A stretch of DNA of 39,886 nt from a virus, in the IMG/VR virus record IMGVR_UViG_3300015171_000012, positions 1-39,886 of that record, one strand, 5' to 3'. This document shows, piece by piece, positions 1,435 to 24,086 of the stretch. The notes beneath the pieces are model-generated. The model was not told where the DNA came from and made no database searches. It was given only the letters and a program-made list of their open reading frames with translations. The position numbers and the translations under genes were made by a program. Each line of letters opens with the position of its first letter. The first letter of the stretch is position 1.

Positions 1435-1880
1435 AGATTTGTAACTCATGCAATGAAGTTGGCGAGTTCAGGTCAGACGCTAGAAGTAGCGACGGTCTAC
1501 AAGGCATTTGCAGAGAATGCCAAAGAAAATACCAAAGAGAATATAATAAAACCTATAATTCTCTACAGTCAACCAGAGACTATAAGCGAGATAGGGAGCT
1601 TAAAGACTTTTGGCCAGATTGTAGCCCAAAACAGGCCAGAGAAAATTACAATACGCTATACGCTAGACAAGACGGATGCTGCGCAGTATGTCAAAAGCAC
1701 CAATCAGAGTTTAGTATTTCGTTGTCCGTCGATCATGACCACGATACGGGCTTTGTGCGCGGACTTCTATGCGGAAATTGCAATAGAGGCCTTGGCCTAT
1801 TTATGGACTCCGAAGATTCCTTAATGAAGGCGGCGTCATATATTTCTAAAAATAAAGAAATTAAATTGGTGGCTTTATGA
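1431..1880 (+). CDS. Endonuclease VII-like HNH nuclease (free-standing homing endonuclease)
   Basis: 149 residues with a GTG start overlapping the previous stop. The N-terminus has a Cys4-type zinc site (CNSC about residue 4, CREC about 27). The C-terminal half carries the recombination endonuclease VII signature: CCAVC (about 87), SVDHDHDTG (about 102), RGLLCGNCN (about 114), the His/Asn metal-finger active site. Two relatives occur at 5338 and 8553. It is squeezed between a head gene and the portal with ATGA overlap. Such genes usually act as selfish homing nucleases, although a Holliday-junction resolvase role cannot be excluded. Confidence 0.88.
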   Translation: MKICNSCNEVGEFRSDARSSDGLQGICRECQRKYQREYNKTYNSLQSTRDYKRDRELKDFWPDCSPKQARENYNTLYARQDGCCAVCQKHQSEFSISLSVDHDHDTGFVRGLLCGNCNRGLGLFMDSEDSLMKAASYISKNKEIKLVAL

Positions 1881-3799
1881 AAATAAAGAAGCCCAAAGAC
1901 CCAATAACTAAAATAGTAATGCAGACAAAACCTAAGGCTGACTTATCCGGAAAAGGGGCTTTAGCTGAGTGGTGGTTAGAGAAGTCCGATGAGAAACGTG
2001 CTGCTGAACTCTGTGGCACTGCTGCATACTTAAAGACAAATCAAACATATGCAACACGACAAGACGCCGCCAATGTACGCTTATACTGCGGATTAAGCGT
2101 TTATAGCTATGCTGGAAGCAATGTTTCCAACATGAACAGGACTCGCACTCTTCCTGAAGACCGCCCTACGTTCAATCTCATTCAGGCTTGTACGGATACC
2201 CTAGTGTCTCGCATTGGGCAGGATAGGCCCGAGCCCAAATTCTTAACTGATGGGGCTGATTACAAACAACGTCACTTAGCCCAAAGACTCAATCAATTCA
2301 TTCTAGGCGAGTTCTATCAAACAAAAGCATACGATAAGGCAATTAAGATGCTTCGTGACGCTATTGTTATGGGGACTGGATGTTTAAAGGTTTATGAAGG
2401 CGAAGACGGTAAGGTTTCTGTTGATCGAGTGATGAAAACGCACCTTTATGTAGATGACAATGATTCTATCAATGGCGACCCGCAACAGCTTTATCAATTG
2501 AAGTTAATGGATCGGGATAAGTTACTTGCTAATAGCCCTAAAAAGGCAGCTAAAGTAATTGAAGGCACTCCTAATAGCTATCCAGACAATACTCCTGATT
2601 CGGGTAGAACGGTTTCTGATCAAGTTATGGTCGTAGAGGGATGGAAGTTACCTAGCGGTCCAGACAAAGAAGCTCCTGGCTATCAAGCTGGACGTCATAC
2701 GATTGCTACAGTTAACGGCATTATATTCGACGAGGAATGGCACAAGCCAAAATTCCCATTCGTCTTCATGAATTACTCCGATCCCTATTTAGGGTTCTTC
2801 GGCCAGGGTCTCGCGACCCAACTATTTGGAACCCAGCTTACGCTGAATCGCATTCTGTACACAATTGCGCAAGCCATCACGCTTGTTGGCGTCCCACGTG
2901 TGTTTATTGAGCAAGGCAGTAAAGTCAGTAAGACAGCGATCAATAATCAACTCGGCGTCATGTGTACTTATACTGGAGTAAAGCCCAGCTACGAGGTCGC
3001 TCCCTGTAACGCTCCCGAGCTCTACGCCGAAAGAGATAAGCTCATACAGTATGGGTTCCAACAATGCGGTGTCTCTATGATGCAAGCGTCCTCCCAGAAG
3101 CCAGAGGGATTAAACTCCGGAGCTTCAATACGTTCCTTTGATGATATTTCCACAGATCGAATGGCAACGGTATCTAAAAAGTATTCAAACGTCTTCGTTG
3201 ACCTCGCATATCTCATTGCTGACTGCGCCATGGATATTGCTGAACGAGATGGTAAGTACCAAACTGTTTACCCTAATAAGGATGGAACGAAGGAAATTGA
3301 CCTTCCCGCAATGAAGTTCTTGAAAGATCCTTTTGTTATCCAGTGCTTCTCGGAAAGCTCCCTTCCTAGGACTCCAGCCGGTCGCATTCAAACAGTTACA
3401 GAGCAAGTTCAGGCTGGAATGCTTACCATTAAAGAGGGACGTCGCTTGATGCACTTCCCTGATTTAGAACAAAATGAGCGTCTTGATAACGCTTCTGAAG
3501 AGAGAATCTTTAAAATCCTTGATGATATTGTCGAGAAAGGTAAATACGAACCACCAGATCCGTTTATTGACCTTCAATTGGCTACACAGTTAACTGTTCA
3601 GTACATTAACTTGTACCTTGCTGCCAACTTGGAAGAGAAGAAAGCTGATTTACTTAGGAACTTCTTCAAACAATGCCAAACATTGATCCAAGCAGCCATG
3701 CCGCCTCCCATGCCTCAACCACAAGCCAACCCAGAGGCCCCTCCAACATCTCCACTAGTTCCCAATAGTCCCGCCGCGCAGCCACAACAAGCGGCATAA
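1877..3799 (+). CDS. Portal protein, podovirus P22-like
   Basis: 640 residues. The portal forms the dodecameric DNA channel at one capsid vertex and docks terminase and tail. The size, the place between terminase and scaffold/coat genes, and the core (FGQGLATQLFGTQLTLNRIL, about residues 305-330, the wing/stem region of P22-type portals) support the call. The C-terminus is a Pro/Gln/Ala-rich tail, as in many podovirus portals where it leads into the barrel. The ATG overlaps the endonuclease stop. A 43-base gap with a small hairpin follows before the scaffold gene. Confidence 0.88.
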   Translation: MKIKKPKDPITKIVMQTKPKADLSGKGALAEWWLEKSDEKRAAELCGTAAYLKTNQTYATRQDAANVRLYCGLSVYSYAGSNVSNMNRTRTLPEDRPTFNLIQACTDTLVSRIGQDRPEPKFLTDGADYKQRHLAQRLNQFILGEFYQTKAYDKAIKMLRDAIVMGTGCLKVYEGEDGKVSVDRVMKTHLYVDDNDSINGDPQQLYQLKLMDRDKLLANSPKKAAKVIEGTPNSYPDNTPDSGRTVSDQVMVVEGWKLPSGPDKEAPGYQAGRHTIATVNGIIFDEEWHKPKFPFVFMNYSDPYLGFFGQGLATQLFGTQLTLNRILYTIAQAITLVGVPRVFIEQGSKVSKTAINNQLGVMCTYTGVKPSYEVAPCNAPELYAERDKLIQYGFQQCGVSMMQASSQKPEGLNSGASIRSFDDISTDRMATVSKKYSNVFVDLAYLIADCAMDIAERDGKYQTVYPNKDGTKEIDLPAMKFLKDPFVIQCFSESSLPRTPAGRIQTVTEQVQAGMLTIKEGRRLMHFPDLEQNERLDNASEERIFKILDDIVEKGKYEPPDPFIDLQLATQLTVQYINLYLAANLEEKKADLLRNFFKQCQTLIQAAMPPPMPQPQANPEAPPTSPLVPNSPAAQPQQAA

Positions 3800-4805: not shown

Positions 4806-5117
4806 ATGGCAATTTCGCCCGTATATGCAAACAGTAGTAATCAGATCGCAGCTTTGAAAGAGTTGACGACTGATGACAAAGATTACATGAAAAATATCGT
4901 GTATTCTAAGAACCCACGTCTAGCAATGGTCCATAAGAACGAAAGTCCTGATGGCTTTGCTGGTAAATATATTCCGGTTCCTCTGGAATACGGCAATCCT
5001 CAAGGTCGCGCACACGTGTTCGCAAATGCTCAGAATCAGCAAACTGCTTCTGATGTAGTTTCGTACTTCGTGTATGCGGTACAGGATTACCAACTTGTTA
5101 CCATTACTAACCTCCTT
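4806..5117 (+). CDS. Major capsid protein, exon 1 (residues 1-104)
   Basis: Encodes the N-terminal 104 residues of the coat protein. The frame runs on to a stop at 5142-5144 inside an intron; unspliced RNA would give a 112-residue truncated product. The proposed splice point is after T5117: UCCUU pairs with GGGGA (5126-5130) to form P1 with the expected U.G pair. Joining 4806..5117, 5871..6789 and 7017..7078 gives 1293 bases, exactly 431 codons including the stop, a 430-residue protein, the same length as the P22 coat protein. YGNPQGR lies at residues 62-68. Confidence 0.85.
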
Positions 5118-5309
5118 AACTTCATGGGGACCTTGGCCGCGTAAGCGCCATTGAATAACTAACCAAAAACGGTGGACGCTGAGACGCCAATACCGTGCTA
5201 AGTATGGGAATTAAAAAGACTATACCAGTGTAGAGCATAGCACTTGAAACTTTTCCTTATATTTGTTACAATACATGGAACAGACTAAAATAGTGCCAAG
5301 AGTGGTTGG

Positions 5310-5330
5310 CACCCTAACAATAAAAGGGTG
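5310..5330 (+). promoter_or_regulatory. Ribosome-site-masking hairpin of the intron ORF
   Basis: CACCCT (5310-5315) can pair with AGGGTG (5325-5330), which is the only Shine-Dalgarno sequence of the intron endonuclease at 5338. In T4 introns similar masking keeps the nuclease silent on long transcripts. Confidence 0.5.
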
Positions 5331-5337
5331 ATGAGAT

Positions 5338-5838
5338 ATGCCGAACTTGTTCAAAAAGTGTGTGAAGTGTGAAGAGATGAGAAATGCAGATACAGAGTAT
5401 CATCTAAACGGAGCCTACTACAAAGGTGGGATAAAGAAGCGAAGAACTGATTGCGTTTATTGTTGCCGAAAGAGAAGAAGCGAATATTTTAAAAACGCCG
5501 ATTCAAGGGTAAAAATAAACACAAGAAGGCGCAGAAATTATCAAACCGATGGCGGAGCCAGAAGAGAGAAGAACAGAAAAAACTCTCTCAAGCAGCTTTA
5601 TGGAATGTCAGTTGAGCGCTATGACGAGCTTAGAAAAGAGCAAAATTATAGTTGTGGAATCTGCAAAATCCATGAGTCTAAAGCTATCCGCGGTAAGCTA
5701 TATGTCGATCACAATCATATCACTGGAGAAAATCGAGGATTGCTTTGTAGCAAATGCAATTCGGCTCTAGGTTTCTTTCTGGATAGCCCAGAAATAATGA
5801 AAAGAGCGATTGATTTTATTTCAAGAACAAGAAGTTAG
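5338..5838 (+). CDS. Intron-encoded endonuclease VII-like homing endonuclease
   Basis: 166 residues. N-terminal Cys4 zinc finger (CVKCEEM about residue 8, CVYCC about 41), a basic helical linker, then the endonuclease VII core SCGIC (about 109), YVDHNHITG (about 125) and RGLLCSKCN (about 136). It lies wholly inside group I intron 1, the classical arrangement for a homing endonuclease that spreads its intron. Its ribosome site AGGGTG (5325-5330) can pair with CACCCT (5310-5315), so translation may be restrained from full-length capsid mRNA. Confidence 0.88.
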   Translation: MPNLFKKCVKCEEMRNADTEYHLNGAYYKGGIKKRRTDCVYCCRKRRSEYFKNADSRVKINTRRRRNYQTDGGARREKNRKNSLKQLYGMSVERYDELRKEQNYSCGICKIHESKAIRGKLYVDHNHITGENRGLLCSKCNSALGFFLDSPEIMKRAIDFISRTRS

Positions 5839-5870
5839 GATAAAAAGCCTAACGATAACAGCTCTGCATG

Positions 5871-6789
5871 GAGCAAACAAAAAGTAATGCTGGCGCCTTC
5901 GTTGATGAAGCAAGCCGTACCCTTGACAACGGGTTTCGCAACTTGTCGAACAACATGGCGTTTGAATTGTTCTTCGGTGGTACAGCTTCACGCGGTGTCA
6001 TCGGTAGCGCAGTTCTAGCTGCAGGTGTAGTGACTATCGTACTAAGCAATGCGCAAAACGTAGTACAATTTGAAGTAGGAATGACGCTTCAAAATAGTGC
6101 AACGGACGGCGGCGCAGCCCTTCTTATCGGTGGTGTAATTGACGCAATTCAATTGACCTCGGTAAACCGTGGTAACGGCACTCTCGTAGGTACGGTAGTT
6201 CAAGGCTCGGGCGCTTCGTTCGTAGCTGGTGACTTCCTACAGGTTCTTGGCGACATCGGTTCTGCCGGTGCTTCCACGATCGCTGGATTGCTCGGTTTGT
6301 CTGGTTTGGCTGCATGGATTCCAGCAGTTGACCCAATCAACACGGACAATTTCTGGGGTGTAAATCGTTCTGCTGATCCAACTCGTTTGGGCGGTCTACG
6401 ATACAATGCATCTGCACAGTCCATTAGCGAAGGCATTACAAACGCCCTTGCTTTCGGTAACCGTGAAGGCGCATCGTTTGACCTGATCACGATTGACTTC
6501 GTAAGCTACAGCACGTTGATTAACGAGCTTGGCGCGAAAGTTCAGTATGTTCAGCTTGAGCATGATGAAGTAGAAGTAGCTTTCGAAGCTATCCACTTCC
6601 ATAGTGCTTATGGAAAGATCCCAGTATTGGCAGATCGTTCTTGCCAAGCTCAAACTGCATGGGCAACTACCGAGGAGACGCTTAAACTCCGTACTCTTGG
6701 TAAAGCTCCTCACATTTTGACATATGGGATGGAAGGCCTAGAGGGTTTGCGGGTTGGAAACGCGGACGCGCTCGAAGTACGTATTGCCT
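5871..6789 (+). CDS. Major capsid protein, exon 2 (residues 105 to 411)
   Basis: Central part of the coat protein; an ATG at 5868 makes it look like a separate 317-residue gene, but no ribosome site precedes it. It includes a beta-rich Gly/Val insertion (about residues 150-240), then FWGVNRSADPTR (from 265) and FGNREGAS (about 299-306), both shared with the short protein at 37469. The frame ends at 6821 only because it enters intron 2. The splice after T6789 is set by the P1 pairing AUUGCCU with AGGGCAAU. Confidence 0.85.
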
Positions 6790-7016
6790 TAAAAAACAGC
6801 TACTTACAAGTAGCAGCGTAAGGGCAATTAAAATTTTCTCTGATTGACTTGGAAGCCTAGAAGTAGGTGACAGGGCGGAAGCGAAAGCACCGTGAACGAC
6901 TAAGTGAGAAAACCCGATAAAAAGGGATGCGATAGTCTGACCTTGGGTATAACAAAAGAAACCCAAGAGAAGAATCCGAAGAGGTTCTTCCCGCCGAAAG
7001 GTGAGTAACAAAAGTG
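6790..7016 (+). ncRNA. Group I intron 2 in the capsid gene (small, ORF-less)
   Basis: About 227 bases between coat exons 2 and 3, with no reading frame of its own. P1: ATTGCCT (6783-6789) pairs with AGGGCAAT (6821-6828) with U.G at the splice site. P2-like hairpin CCTA-GAAG-TAGG (6855-6866). P4/P5 region around GCGGAAGCGAAAGCACCG. P7 strands GACTA (6898-6902) and TAGTC (6933-6937) with a P8 hairpin CCC-GGG between them. P9 hairpin GGGT...ACCC follows. It ends at G7016. The splice gives RIAYYGNLICSAPGYN, a normal coat C-terminus. P10 could use GTAG (6810) with the 3' exon CTAC. Confidence 0.82.
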
Positions 7017-7078
7017 ACTACGGCAATCTTATTTGTAGCGCACCGGGCTACAATATGCAAATCGCTCTTAGCGCTTAA
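7017..7078 (+). CDS. Major capsid protein, exon 3 (C-terminal 19-20 residues)
   Basis: Very short last exon encoding YGNLICSAPGYNMQIALSA and TAA. It would be missed by normal gene finding because it has no start. It is supported by its strong resemblance to the C-terminus VICTAPGYNLRG of the 37469 protein, by the in-frame join with exon 2, and by the terminator that follows 25 bases after the stop. Without it the coat protein would lack its last beta strand. Confidence 0.82.
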
Positions 7079-7102
7079 TAGCTCGAAAGAACAACAAAAT
7101 CA

Positions 7103-7128
7103 GGGCTCCGAAAGGGGCCCTTTTCATT
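7103..7128 (+). terminator. Intrinsic terminator after the capsid gene
   Basis: GGGCTCC (7103-7109), tetraloop GAAA, GGGGCCC (7114-7120) and then TTTTCATTT. A strong GC stem with one G.T pair and a short T run, 24 bases after the coat stop. It would limit read-through so that coat mRNA is produced in excess, and the next late-unit motif starts 4 bases after it. Confidence 0.85.
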
Positions 7129-7131
7129 TCT

Positions 7132-7152
7132 AAGCAGCACTTTCCTACATAT
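7132..7152 (+). promoter_or_regulatory. Late-unit motif AAGCAGCA + TACATAT (copy 1)
   Basis: AAGCAGCA at 7132-7139, six bases, then TACATAT at 7146. It sits directly behind the coat terminator, as expected for a new transcription start. It is one of five exact copies in the plus-strand late regions, all with TA exactly six bases downstream. Two leader hairpins follow: GCAC-GTGC at 7157-7168 and CTAGGG...CCCTAG at 7187-7214. A promoter role is inferred. Confidence 0.55.
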
Positions 7153-7233: not shown

Positions 7234-8553
7234 ATGAGTCAGCCACGTGGTTTTGGTCTAAACGGTAAATCCCTCTACACTAACATTTGTCTACCCCAAG
7301 AAGTTAACTGTAACTTCGTTGTAGATTCGCAAAATGGTAACGGTTTAGGCATTCGCTCTCTTAAGAGCAACGGATATGTTGCTAACGTATTCATGAATAC
7401 CTCCGCAGCTCCTGCTGGAAGTCCCGCAATGGGCGCAGCTCGTGCATTCGCAATCTTAGGCGCTTCCGCTGTAACCAACACCGGTAACAGCGTACTTACT
7501 GGTAACCTTGGCGTTAGCCCTGGTGTGGCCATCACTGGTTTTCCTCCTGGTACCTTTAGCGGTACTGAGCATATTACTGATGTTCTTGCGGCCCAAGCTC
7601 AAGCGGCTGCTCTAGTTTCTTACAACGATCTTCACTCTCGCGCATCTTCTGTTATCGCTACGGAATTAGGCGGTCAGAGTTTGACGGCTGGTGTTTATAG
7701 CTCTGCTGGCGGTACTTTCACTGGTACTGGCGGTCTTACGCTTACACTTACTGGTACGGCTACTGATATTTTCGTATTCCAAACCGCTACAACCCTTACA
7801 ACGGGCGTTGGAGCCGGTGGTAACTTCGTAATCACCCTCGCTGGTGGTGCATTAGCTTCAAACGTATATTGGGCAGTAGGATCTAGCGCAACGATCAACA
7901 GCGCAGCATCTTCTGCTGGTTCTGTGTTTAAGGGTAACGTAATTGCACAATCTAGCATTACGGCTACACAGGTTGGAACAATAGACGGTAGTTTGATCGC
8001 TCTTACTGGCGCGGTGACATTGAGTGCTGCAAACGCTGTTCTTGCTCAGCCTTTCGCTGGAGCTCCTCTTGGTGGAAACCCAAATCCTCTTCCAGGTTAT
8101 GCTTGGATTCAATTAAACAATAACTTCAACAAATACATTGGCGGTTTCTCTGGTTTCGTATCTCCGCTTAACGGTGTATCTGTAACGAGCGTAGTTCTTG
8201 GACAGGCTTATGTGATCGTCTCTCTTGGTACGACCACATTAGCTCAATGGCAGTCTGCTGGTCTCCCTCCTGGATTGGTTCCAGCAGTTGGTCAGAGCTT
8301 CATTGCTAAAGCTTCTCAAGCATTGGGCGGATCTGGCGCAGTTCAGGCTCCAATCGTTTCCGGAATTAACTCTCTAGAAGTTATTGGTGATCCTAATCTT
8401 TCGATTAGCAACTCCAACATCGCTAAAAATAACGGCGCATGGCTTCTTGTTCAGTTCTTGTCTAACGGTGTTCTACAAGCACCCAAAGACGGTTCTGTAT
8501 GCGGAATGCAAATGATCTTTGACGGATCTAGCGTTAGCATAGACGGCCTTTGA
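7234..8553 (+). CDS. Capsid-associated protein with an inserted ice-binding (DUF3494) domain
   Basis: 439 residues. Residues 1-66 and about 280-439 look like one virion protein (NCNFVVDSQNGNGLGIRSL...; PGYAWIQLNNNFNKYIGG). Between them, about 70-270, lies a full DUF3494 ice-binding-like beta-solenoid: FAILGASAVTNTG, GNLGVSPG, TGFPPGTFSG, AAQAQAAALVSYNDL, ELGGQSLTAGVYS, FQTATTLTT, VYWAVGSSATI, and GSLIALTGAVTL. The domain borders carry similar APxGxP motifs. It follows the coat gene, and an AAGGAA ribosome site precedes the ATG. Host DUF3494 proteins bind ice or act as adhesins; here a virion-surface role is inferred. Confidence 0.85.
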   Translation: MSQPRGFGLNGKSLYTNICLPQEVNCNFVVDSQNGNGLGIRSLKSNGYVANVFMNTSAAPAGSPAMGAARAFAILGASAVTNTGNSVLTGNLGVSPGVAITGFPPGTFSGTEHITDVLAAQAQAAALVSYNDLHSRASSVIATELGGQSLTAGVYSSAGGTFTGTGGLTLTLTGTATDIFVFQTATTLTTGVGAGGNFVITLAGGALASNVYWAVGSSATINSAASSAGSVFKGNVIAQSSITATQVGTIDGSLIALTGAVTLSAANAVLAQPFAGAPLGGNPNPLPGYAWIQLNNNFNKYIGGFSGFVSPLNGVSVTSVVLGQAYVIVSLGTTTLAQWQSAGLPPGLVPAVGQSFIAKASQALGGSGAVQAPIVSGINSLEVIGDPNLSISNSNIAKNNGAWLLVQFLSNGVLQAPKDGSVCGMQMIFDGSSVSIDGL

Positions 8554-9041
8554 TGCATAGCATGATTACAAAATCATGCACAAGATGTCTTGAGAATAAG
8601 CCCCTAACTGAATTCTGGAAACACCCAGGAGCTAGAATGGGGCTTACTCCACGCTGCAAGCCGTGCCATAGAATTACTGCCAAAGAATGGAGAGATAAAA
8701 ATCCAGAAAAGTTGGCAATAAAACAGGCTAAAAATGCAGAGTATGAAAGAAATCATCCAGCCGAGGCGTTTAATAGAAGACTTAAATATACTCATGGAAT
8801 AGATAAAAAAGAGTGGGATTCTATGTATTCTTCACAAAATGGTTGCTGCGCGATATGCGAAAGACACAGCAGTGAGCTGTCTAGGGTTCTTCAGGTCGAC
8901 CATAACCATGCTACTGGGGAGATTAGAGGCCTACTCTGTACCAAATGCAACACAAGGCTAGCAGCAGTTGAGGATGAAAAGTTCTCAAAAAGGGCCATAA
9001 TTTATTTAAATAAAGTTAGATTAAGATTGGTTGGTGCGTAA
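8553..9041 (+). CDS. Endonuclease VII-like HNH nuclease (free-standing)
   Basis: 162 residues from the ATG overlapping the upstream TGA (TTTGATG). N-terminal zinc finger CTRC (about residue 9) and CKPC (about 35), then the nuclease core CCAIC (about 96), QVDHNHATGE (about 111) and RGLLCTKCN (about 123). It is paralogous to the nucleases at 1431 and 5338 but diverged outside the motifs. It is wedged between two virion genes with overlaps at both ends, typical of a free-standing homing nuclease that replaced an intergenic junction. Confidence 0.87.
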   Translation: MHSMITKSCTRCLENKPLTEFWKHPGARMGLTPRCKPCHRITAKEWRDKNPEKLAIKQAKNAEYERNHPAEAFNRRLKYTHGIDKKEWDSMYSSQNGCCAICERHSSELSRVLQVDHNHATGEIRGLLCTKCNTRLAAVEDEKFSKRAIIYLNKVRLRLVGA

Positions 9042-10093
9042 TGGCTATACCAGCAGTCCCAACTAATCTAGCCGCCGAGCAATCGGACGGAAACATACTA
9101 TTGTCTTGGACTCCCTCGGTAGGTGCGTTGAATTATCAGATTCAGCGCTCTACTGATGGGGTTAACTTTTCAAATCTAATTCTAGTTGGTATTGTAAATC
9201 AGTATGTAGATCCATTGCCTGGAATTGGGATTATGTACTACTACCAGATAGCCGCACAGAACGGATCTGGGACTAGTGCTTATGGAAATATAGCGCAGAT
9301 TGTAGCGGCACCCCCGTCAGAAATGTCTCTTTTTGAGATGCGCTTAAGGGCTCAAGAAACAGCAGACAGGGTAAACTCTCAGTTTGTAATCCAATCGGAA
9401 TGGAATTCCTTTTTAAGGCTTGCGATGTACGAGCTTTATGATTTACTAATTACAGTCTATGAAGATCTATTCGCGAGCTCGTTTGTGTTCATTAATACCA
9501 ACGGAACCACTCAGAACTACGCTATTCCTGATGGCGTTACCAATTATTTGGGCGGTAGTTACGGTGGATTATCTGGTGCTCCAGCACTTGCCTTTTACAA
9601 ACTTGCGGGGATGGATCTTGGAATCAACACTTCGAATAATGCGTGGGTTACACTACTAAAATTCGATTTCATTGAGCGCAATAAATATGTTTATCCGAAC
9701 AGCACCTCTACCATTTATGGTGTTTATAATATGCGTTATCGCCTTATGGGCAATTTCGTCAATATCATCCCGACTCCAGCGGGCAATCAACAGATTAGAA
9801 TGTGGTACTCACCCAAACTCCCTGCTTTGCTTAAGGACACTGATCTAACTACGCTTGGATATTCTGGGTGGCTTAGGTACCCGATTGTAAGAGCCGCAAA
9901 GTACGCTCTAGACAAAGAAGAGGGCACAGACACCACTAAGCTTGATCAGGAGATTCTATTCCTTAAAGCGCGTATAGAGCAGTCTGCAACTAACAGAGAC
10001 AATGCAATGCCAGATACAATATCCGCTACCAGACAAGACTCTACATATGGCGGAAATGGTTTCGCCGGCGGCGGATCTTCAGCGGGATGGTGA
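9041..10093 (+). CDS. Head-tail adaptor-like protein with N-terminal fibronectin type III domain
   Basis: 350 residues. Residues about 3-90 form a fibronectin type III fold (PTNLAAEQSDGNILLSWTPS, YQIQRSTDG, YYYQIAAQNGSGTSAYG). The remainder is a helical/beta domain beginning EMSLFEMRLRAQETADR with LRLAMYELYDLL and a late helix with ATNRDNAMP, the pattern of podovirus head-completion/adaptor proteins that join portal and tail. The start overlaps the nuclease stop (TAATGG). The FN3 fusion probably adds a surface carbohydrate- or protein-binding module; that is inference. Confidence 0.7.
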   Translation: MAIPAVPTNLAAEQSDGNILLSWTPSVGALNYQIQRSTDGVNFSNLILVGIVNQYVDPLPGIGIMYYYQIAAQNGSGTSAYGNIAQIVAAPPSEMSLFEMRLRAQETADRVNSQFVIQSEWNSFLRLAMYELYDLLITVYEDLFASSFVFINTNGTTQNYAIPDGVTNYLGGSYGGLSGAPALAFYKLAGMDLGINTSNNAWVTLLKFDFIERNKYVYPNSTSTIYGVYNMRYRLMGNFVNIIPTPAGNQQIRMWYSPKLPALLKDTDLTTLGYSGWLRYPIVRAAKYALDKEEGTDTTKLDQEILFLKARIEQSATNRDNAMPDTISATRQDSTYGGNGFAGGGSSAGW

Positions 10094-23464: not shown

Positions 23465-23620
23465 ATGGAGCAAAAAGATCGCGACATTTTGATTGAAATA
23501 CACACAATCATTAAAGATGTAGCTCCGCTTGTAAAAAAGCACGAAAGAGATATAAATATTGGGAAGGGAATGTGGCTAATGGTGTTGGCTATTCTTTCCT
23601 GGCTTGGCTTTAATAAATAA
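23465..23620 (+). CDS. Small membrane protein, XhlA/holin-like
   Basis: 51 residues, starting one base after the endolysin stop. Charged amphipathic N-terminal helix (MEQKDRDILIEIHTIIKDVAPLV...) and a single C-terminal membrane segment WLMVLAILSWLGF. This is the layout of haemolysin XhlA-like phage lysis proteins that sit next to endolysins. A holin or holin-accessory role is inferred from this layout and neighbourhood. Confidence 0.6.
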   Translation: MEQKDRDILIEIHTIIKDVAPLVKKHERDINIGKGMWLMVLAILSWLGFNK

Positions 23621-23621
23621 A

Positions 23622-24086
23622 ATGAAAATATCGTCAGAAGAAAGATTTTTTAGAAAAGTACTAATTTCTCCATTCAATGAATGCTGGGAATGGCTCGCCT
23701 ATAAGCTTAAAGGATACGGGCGATTCGGAAATAATGGTTCAGTTGTTTATGCTCATAGATATTCATATGAATTTTATAATGGTAAAATAACCAATGGCCT
23801 GCATGTGCTACATAAATGCGACAATCCTGGATGCGTAAATCCATCGCATCTTTTTTTGGGCACACAAAAAGAAAACATAGCCGATATGTTTAATAAAAAA
23901 AGAAATCCTTCAAGAAAGGGCGAAAGGGGGGCCAATAAGCTTACCGAGAAAGAGGTAATATACATATTAAATTGCCTAGACAATGATATATGTAGTGGAT
24001 ACTCTTTAGCTAAGAAGTTTAATGTCTGTACAAGCGCTATATACGGAATTAAACATAGGAAAAGATGGAATTATTTAACCTCATAA
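23622..24086 (+). CDS. HNH endonuclease (HNH_3 type) with C-terminal DNA-binding region
   Basis: 154 residues from the ATG at 23622 (a TTG at 23604 overlapping the previous gene is in frame but lacks a ribosome site). The core GYGRFGNNGSVVYAHRYSYE followed by HVLHKCDNPGCVNPSHLFLGT (about residues 61-81) is the HNH_3 nuclease signature. The C-terminus SGYSLAKKFNVCTSAIYGI (from about 125) is a helix-turn-helix that would recognise the target. Its base composition is more A+T-rich than the surrounding lysis genes, in line with recent acquisition. It interrupts the lysis cluster. Confidence 0.87.
   Translation: MKISSEERFFRKVLISPFNECWEWLAYKLKGYGRFGNNGSVVYAHRYSYEFYNGKITNGLHVLHKCDNPGCVNPSHLFLGTQKENIADMFNKKRNPSRKGERGANKLTEKEVIYILNCLDNDICSGYSLAKKFNVCTSAIYGIKHRKRWNYLTS

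Follow-up and report, generated by a model that had tools for sequence, protein, structure and literature searches.

Most known DUF3494 proteins are secreted by bacteria, algae or fungi; examples are AnpIBP (7bwx), EfcIBP (6eio) and FfIBP (4nu2). The ice-binding site of AnpIBP is its B-face, and the substitution S153Y or T156Y reduces its activity to 17% (PMC7277481). PF11999-type or antifreeze genes have also been reported in virus genomes from Arctic and Southern Ocean viromes, where the accessible portions of the reports describe them as auxiliary genes for host cryoprotection, without a virion-protein context (PMC11515562, PMC8407431). The DUF3494 proteins of Hyperionvirus are likewise virus-encoded and unexplained; among the top BFVD matches listed, no other DUF3494 models appeared. 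Phage decoration proteins such as T4 Hoc display Ig-like or similar domains. The domain described here has the same whole-domain fold as AnpIBP, EfcIBP and FfIBP (Z ~28-32, ~30-40% identity) but, unlike most known DUF3494 proteins, it is embedded in a head-operon protein that has no signal peptide. We propose, with a probability of roughly 0.6, that the protein holding it (hereafter the carrier) is a decoration-type protein of the head surface that presents the domain and lets the virion bind ice, the binding itself being predicted from sequence and model.

A DUF3494 domain in the gene after the capsid gene

The window, that is, the whole stretch of DNA analysed, spans the 39,886 bases of one IMG/VR virus record. 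An earlier sequence-only reading had pointed to an open reading frame at 7234-8553 and to a complete DUF3494 beta-solenoid within it, and both were recovered as follows.

7234-8553, + strand: head-region protein gene with inserted DUF3494 domain (439 aa; open reading frame and translation, PF11999, relatives)
7411-8058, + strand: DUF3494 domain and linker (model residues 60-275; the Pfam match is 7453-8031)

The Pfam search proposed by that reading matched PF11999 (Ice_binding, formerly DUF3494) to residues 74-266 with an E-value of 3.2e-40 and 138.4 bits against a cut-off of 28.7, covering positions 1-205 of the 208 in the profile. No other Pfam match was found for the 439-aa protein and PHROGs holds no entry for it. 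By sequence, it is matched by 25 distinct DUF3494 sequences of the PDB, the best being 6eio (5e-35). Such agreement greatly exceeds what chance would give. NF045625 (the IBP_CFB equivalog of NCBIfam) gave a partial match over residues 141-265 with 55.4 bits against a curated cut-off of 400 bits; on this sequence evidence the domain is outside the equivalog and a member of the same superfamily only. A simple hydropathy test detected no hydrophobic N-terminal segment in the window protein (best 10-residue mean of 0.4). With this test, signal peptides were rare among 66 viral DUF3494 proteins and were seen in three of four cellular controls.

The borders of the domain had been described as similar APxGxP junctions. 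This description did not hold as the trace of an insertion: the left P-x-G-S-P motif accompanies the domain in other phages too, the right N-P-N-P motif is the carrier's own and is also present in versions without the domain, and no direct DNA repeats were found beside the insert. We therefore rejected an insertion scar. A foreign base composition was also rejected, the difference in GC content between the insert (~0.49-0.56) and the nearby sequence (0.41-0.49) not being striking.

The surroundings of the gene contain the following features.

1877-3799, + strand: portal protein, P22-like (PHROG 156 at 1e-7; PF16510 at 2e-5, below the Pfam cut-off; weak but consistent)
4806-7078, + strand: major capsid protein gene (exons 4806-5116, 5867 to about 6787, and about 7016 to 7078)
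7102-7121, + strand: terminator-like hairpin between the capsid gene and the DUF3494 gene (pattern scan; weak, with 3 found against 1.7 expected)
9041-10093, + strand: SU10-type adaptor, the next conserved virion gene downstream (PF24175 at 3.7e-5, just below the cut-off; synteny)

The order portal, major capsid protein, carrier and adaptor is common to many contigs. The joined capsid exons are colinear with the uninterrupted major capsid protein of locus L065 and extend to 7078, so that the DUF3494 gene comes immediately after the capsid gene, as had been claimed. The capsid gene itself is split by two probable group I introns (5117-5866 and about 6788-7015); the first has T/...G/ junctions and an endonuclease-VII-type reading frame (5338-5838), and Rfam gave no relevant match for either intron even at lax thresholds. 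Further endonuclease VII or HNH reading frames (PF02945, PF13392) lie at 1431-1880, 8550-9041 and 23604-24086. The one at 8550-9041 overlaps the stop of the DUF3494 gene, and homing-type endonucleases are abundant in the window. The capsid protein had no relative in 50,697 phage records and the whole phage group is therefore uncultured; the same records held no cultured relative of the 439-aa protein.

The carrier protein and its other inserts

Outside the domain, three parts of the carrier were delimited.

7234-7404, + strand: carrier N-terminal part (residues 1-57; strands 21-30, 40-45 and 49-54 in the model)
8077-8550, + strand: carrier C-terminal part (residues 282-439; starts at the NPNP motif; invariant columns)
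8164-8358, + strand: SLGTTTLAQWQ module in the carrier (approximately residues 311-375; also in L020 and L021)

In more than 50 relatives without the domain, residues 1 to ~57 and ~282 to 439 align with a single uninterrupted protein of ~232 aa, which agrees with the earlier proposal that the domain lies between two halves of another protein. More than 50 related contigs have the gene for this ~232-aa protein directly 3' of the capsid gene. Identity to the domain-free relatives is mostly 47-81% for the N-terminal part, compared with their N-termini, and 33-66% for the C-terminal part. The insert-free versions that the sequence-only reading had suggested searching for thus exist, and they make up most of the carrier's relatives. 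At the insertion point, most relatives have a loop of ~10 residues ending in the carrier's NPNP, and the window has 224 residues. The carrier belongs to no named family and has no Pfam or PHROG match. Its structural matches are weak (beta-sandwich, Z ~3-6.5), and no decoration-protein family stood out in the structure comparison, although the carrier may still belong to one. The SLGTTTLAQWQ module recurs inside putative tail fibre proteins of ~1000 aa (L020:6939-9932 and L021:5751-8876).

Unrelated inserts occur in other carriers: L065 has one in the loop that holds DUF3494 in the window, L029 has one inside the SLGTTT module, and L016, L032, L047 and L049 have theirs between residues 409 and 410 in P0001 numbering. 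In the model, the insert sites come after strands 49-54, 300-309 (the module) and 403-410. Assuming that strand direction alternates, this strand order would place all insert sites at one end of the sandwich, and that end would face outward. Among the unnamed carrier inserts (L016, L032, L047, L049, L029, L042 and L065), one type presents a G-x-H-T-H motif. The existence of unrelated inserts in the same carrier is consistent with DUF3494 being a passive spacer or stabiliser without a ligand, one of several exchangeable inserts tolerated in carrier loops. We regard this as improbable: the face-specific conservation and the repeated gain of DUF3494 in different carriers, both described below, argue for a selected function.

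Predicted fold and B-face

The full-length AF2 model, built from 60 aligned sequences, had a mean pLDDT of 88.8, with values mostly of 92-97 in the DUF3494 domain; an earlier model with only two DUF3494 rows had given ~40-65 for the domain. The strands form an irregular beta-solenoid with a long alpha-helix (residues 117-135) alongside. This structure prediction, one of the checks proposed beforehand, yielded a complete DUF3494 solenoid that superposes on AnpIBP with 1.2 A over 198 residues (Z 32). The top structure matches were 7bwy (Z 32), 7bwx (31.9) and 6eio (31.2); all DUF3494 ice-binding structures listed scored Z ~28-32, against Z 7 for the next unrelated fold.

We mapped the B-face in the window from the B-face strands of the mutational study of AnpIBP (PMC7277481), whose six strand segments correspond to the following.

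7465-7482, + strand: B-face strand b1, SAVTNT (residues 78-83; AnpIBP B-face mapping, PMC7277481)
7711-7728, + strand: B-face strand b2, GTFTGT (residues 160-165; DSSP strand 162-165; register from the out-in pattern, less certain)
7789-7806, + strand: B-face strand b3, TTLTTG (residues 186-191; AnpIBP mapping; DSSP strand 188-192)
7882-7899, + strand: B-face strand b4, SSATIN (residues 217-222; AnpIBP mapping)
7951-7968, + strand: B-face strand b5, SSITAT (residues 240-245; model and AnpIBP mapping)
8008-8025, + strand: B-face strand b6, GAVTLS (residues 259-264; model and AnpIBP mapping)

The regular Thr/Ser/Ala arrays that the sequence-only reading would look for on the flat face are present: 23 of the 24 outward residues are T, S, A or G, 12 of them Thr, and none is charged (hypergeometric p ~1e-5). 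Column 4 consists of six Thr without a break. Residues S217 and T220 of strand b4 are the equivalents of S153 and T156 of AnpIBP, which are needed for ice binding. The same 24 positions were then compared across 69 viral domains, where 90% of the outward sites of the B-face were T, S, A or G (50% elsewhere) and 1.7% were charged (5.1% elsewhere). These sites were the least variable positions, with an entropy of 0.94 relative to 1.48 elsewhere, they were enriched in Thr (permutation p 3e-4), and the S153 and T156 equivalents were retained in nearly all domains. Judging from sequence and model, the predicted B-face has the features expected of a working ice-binding face.

The fold alone is insufficient to prove ice binding, because DUF3494 also occurs in bacteria without an evident link to ice (Erysipelotrichaceae MAGs, Streptomyces and Curtobacterium). 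For the same reason, adhesion to another surface is the chief rival to ice binding: the solenoid would be a virion-borne adhesin whose ligand is a polysaccharide, the cell envelope or the biofilm matrix, keeping the phage near or attached to its hosts. Display domains inserted into phage proteins often serve to bind surfaces. In addition, PF20597, a related putative adhesive family of Pfam, weakly matches one viral DUF3494 protein, and the DUF3494 protein of L187 also possesses Fn3-associated and chitobiase C-terminal domains. However, conservation among the viral domains is strongest on the ice-binding face, where charged and aromatic residues are nearly absent, as expected for contact with ice but not for a typical sugar-binding site; the retained S153 and T156 equivalents argue in the same direction. 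We therefore judge an adhesin for a ligand other than ice to be unlikely and favor ice binding.

Recurrence of DUF3494 in viral loci

A first scan using as query the two domains first known returned 12 viral loci, and a scan with a wider alignment extended this to at least 79. Besides the window, nine further IMG/VR loci present DUF3494 in the same loop of the carrier.

Same-loop DUF3494 carriers: L006, L103, L105, L133, L141, L146, L152, L153, L157

The sequences of L152 and L153 are identical, and L104 duplicates L105. In a tree built from 64 carriers, six changes are needed to explain where the domain occurs, at least five of them by well-supported branches; according to this tree, the domain has been gained or lost repeatedly in the carrier. 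L105 contains tandem carrier paralogues, one without the domain (5130-5807) and one with it (5815-7140), which constitute a natural matched pair.

In other phages, the domain was found in further capsid-adjacent genes (L112 and L185) and in proteins of 1270-2900 aa adjoining baseplate genes (L106 and L110 among them). Tail sheath proteins contain it too: of 22 long reading frames scanned, 16 matched PHROG sheath families.

Likely set of DUF3494 domains in contractile-phage tail sheaths (PHROG 279 or 2839 with PF11999): L173, L162, L169, L170, L180, L183, L188, L190, L192, L194, L195, L196, L198, L202

Circular permutation of the domain, with the C-terminal part of the profile matching ahead of the N-terminal part, was seen in nine loci, among them sheaths and L185. 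The capsid-adjacent gene of L185 (5821-6879, 353 aa) illustrates this, with profile positions 51-211 followed by 3-59. Several viral contigs carry two or more separate DUF3494 genes (L138/L175/L137, L151/L161/L192, L149/L188 and L169/L142); a single phage may, for example, have one in a sheath-type reading frame and another in a long tail-region protein.

This distribution bears on the published interpretation of virus-encoded ice-binding-like genes, PF11999 and antifreeze genes among them, as auxiliary genes that shield the infected host against freezing (PMC11515562, PMC8407431). Host cryoprotection by a secreted viral protein fits poorly here and we consider it very improbable, since the protein has no signal peptide and is not obviously secreted, the domain is fused within a conserved head-operon gene, and elsewhere it lies inside tail sheaths and long tail-region proteins. 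The evidence gathered here on this viral domain points to virion structure over host cryoprotection.

Regarding the origin of the domain, 10 of the 11 viral domains tested form one clade with 100/100 support, apart from the cellular domains in our limited sampling. Within this viral clade, the head carrier L105 groups with the tail-region carriers L106 and L108 (98/96). The nearest cellular matches present 42-50% identity, and the viral domains may have a cellular origin from a source outside the limited sample. Reading frames for HNH or endonuclease-VII-type endonucleases were found within 1 kb of none of seven carrier genes with the domain (a count leaving out the window's own gene, which has such a frame at 8550-9041), two of 48 carriers without it, and five of 45 other DUF3494 genes with full flanks. 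These counts do not support spread of the domain by homing endonucleases. Finally, searching papers for IMG identifiers yielded no habitat for the contigs, and for this reason we make no claim of a cold habitat.

A possible coat for virions

We infer that the carrier lies on the outside of the head, because its gene is adjacent to the capsid gene, it lacks a signal peptide, and the same domain is inserted in parallel inside the sheath, a virion protein. These results suggest that some phages coat their particles with a predicted ice-binding protein. The beta-sandwich core of the carrier would assemble with the capsid while one loop presents a complete DUF3494 domain. This domain would retain the flat B-face of Thr, Ser, Ala and Gly, the surface with which DUF3494 proteins order water molecules and attach to ice. 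With many copies on the head, the virion would bind ice or the quasi-liquid layer and recrystallisation around it would be stopped, such that particles might stay intact and positioned where their hosts are through freeze and thaw.

A broader proposal, to which we give even odds, is that DUF3494 is a mobile virion-coating module on the heads and contractile tails of unrelated phages exposed to ice or frost, whose virions would adsorb to ice and resist recrystallisation damage. High-copy display would be reached on heads through the insert in the decoration protein and on tails through the sheath insert, sometimes circularly permuted. The domain would pass between phages and be swapped into and out of their virion proteins in much the manner of Ig-like display domains. 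If this is true, antifreeze-type domains serve phages as particle coats, a physical rather than metabolic adaptation to cold, and the published viral ice-binding auxiliary genes would be recast. The survival and transport of virions in snow, permafrost and soil frost would become directly testable, and these phages would offer natural ice-binding nanoparticles in dozens of natural variants with matched domain-free versions.

Comparison with known systems

We found no literature linking ice binding, DUF3494 and phage, and the sole match for PF11999 and phage treats the gene as auxiliary, most subscription papers and preprints lying outside this search. MpAFP is an RTX adhesin of the bacterial cell surface with a different ice-binding fold. 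In this ice adhesin of Marinomonas primoryensis (PMC5014055), an ice-binding domain serves to attach an entire particle, in that case the cell, to ice. With AnpIBP and the other known DUF3494 ice-binding proteins, the window domain shares a B-face with a T-x-T/S/N pattern and the two residues essential in AnpIBP. The window protein can be likened to T4 Hoc-type decoration as an exchangeable folded domain on a virion surface protein, an arrangement deduced here from genes; it differs in that the carrier has no detectable known decoration family and in that the displayed domain is an ice-binding-type solenoid. Priority is not proven for this arrangement; the window domain belongs in PF11999, and we class the whole protein as a variant of phage surface display.
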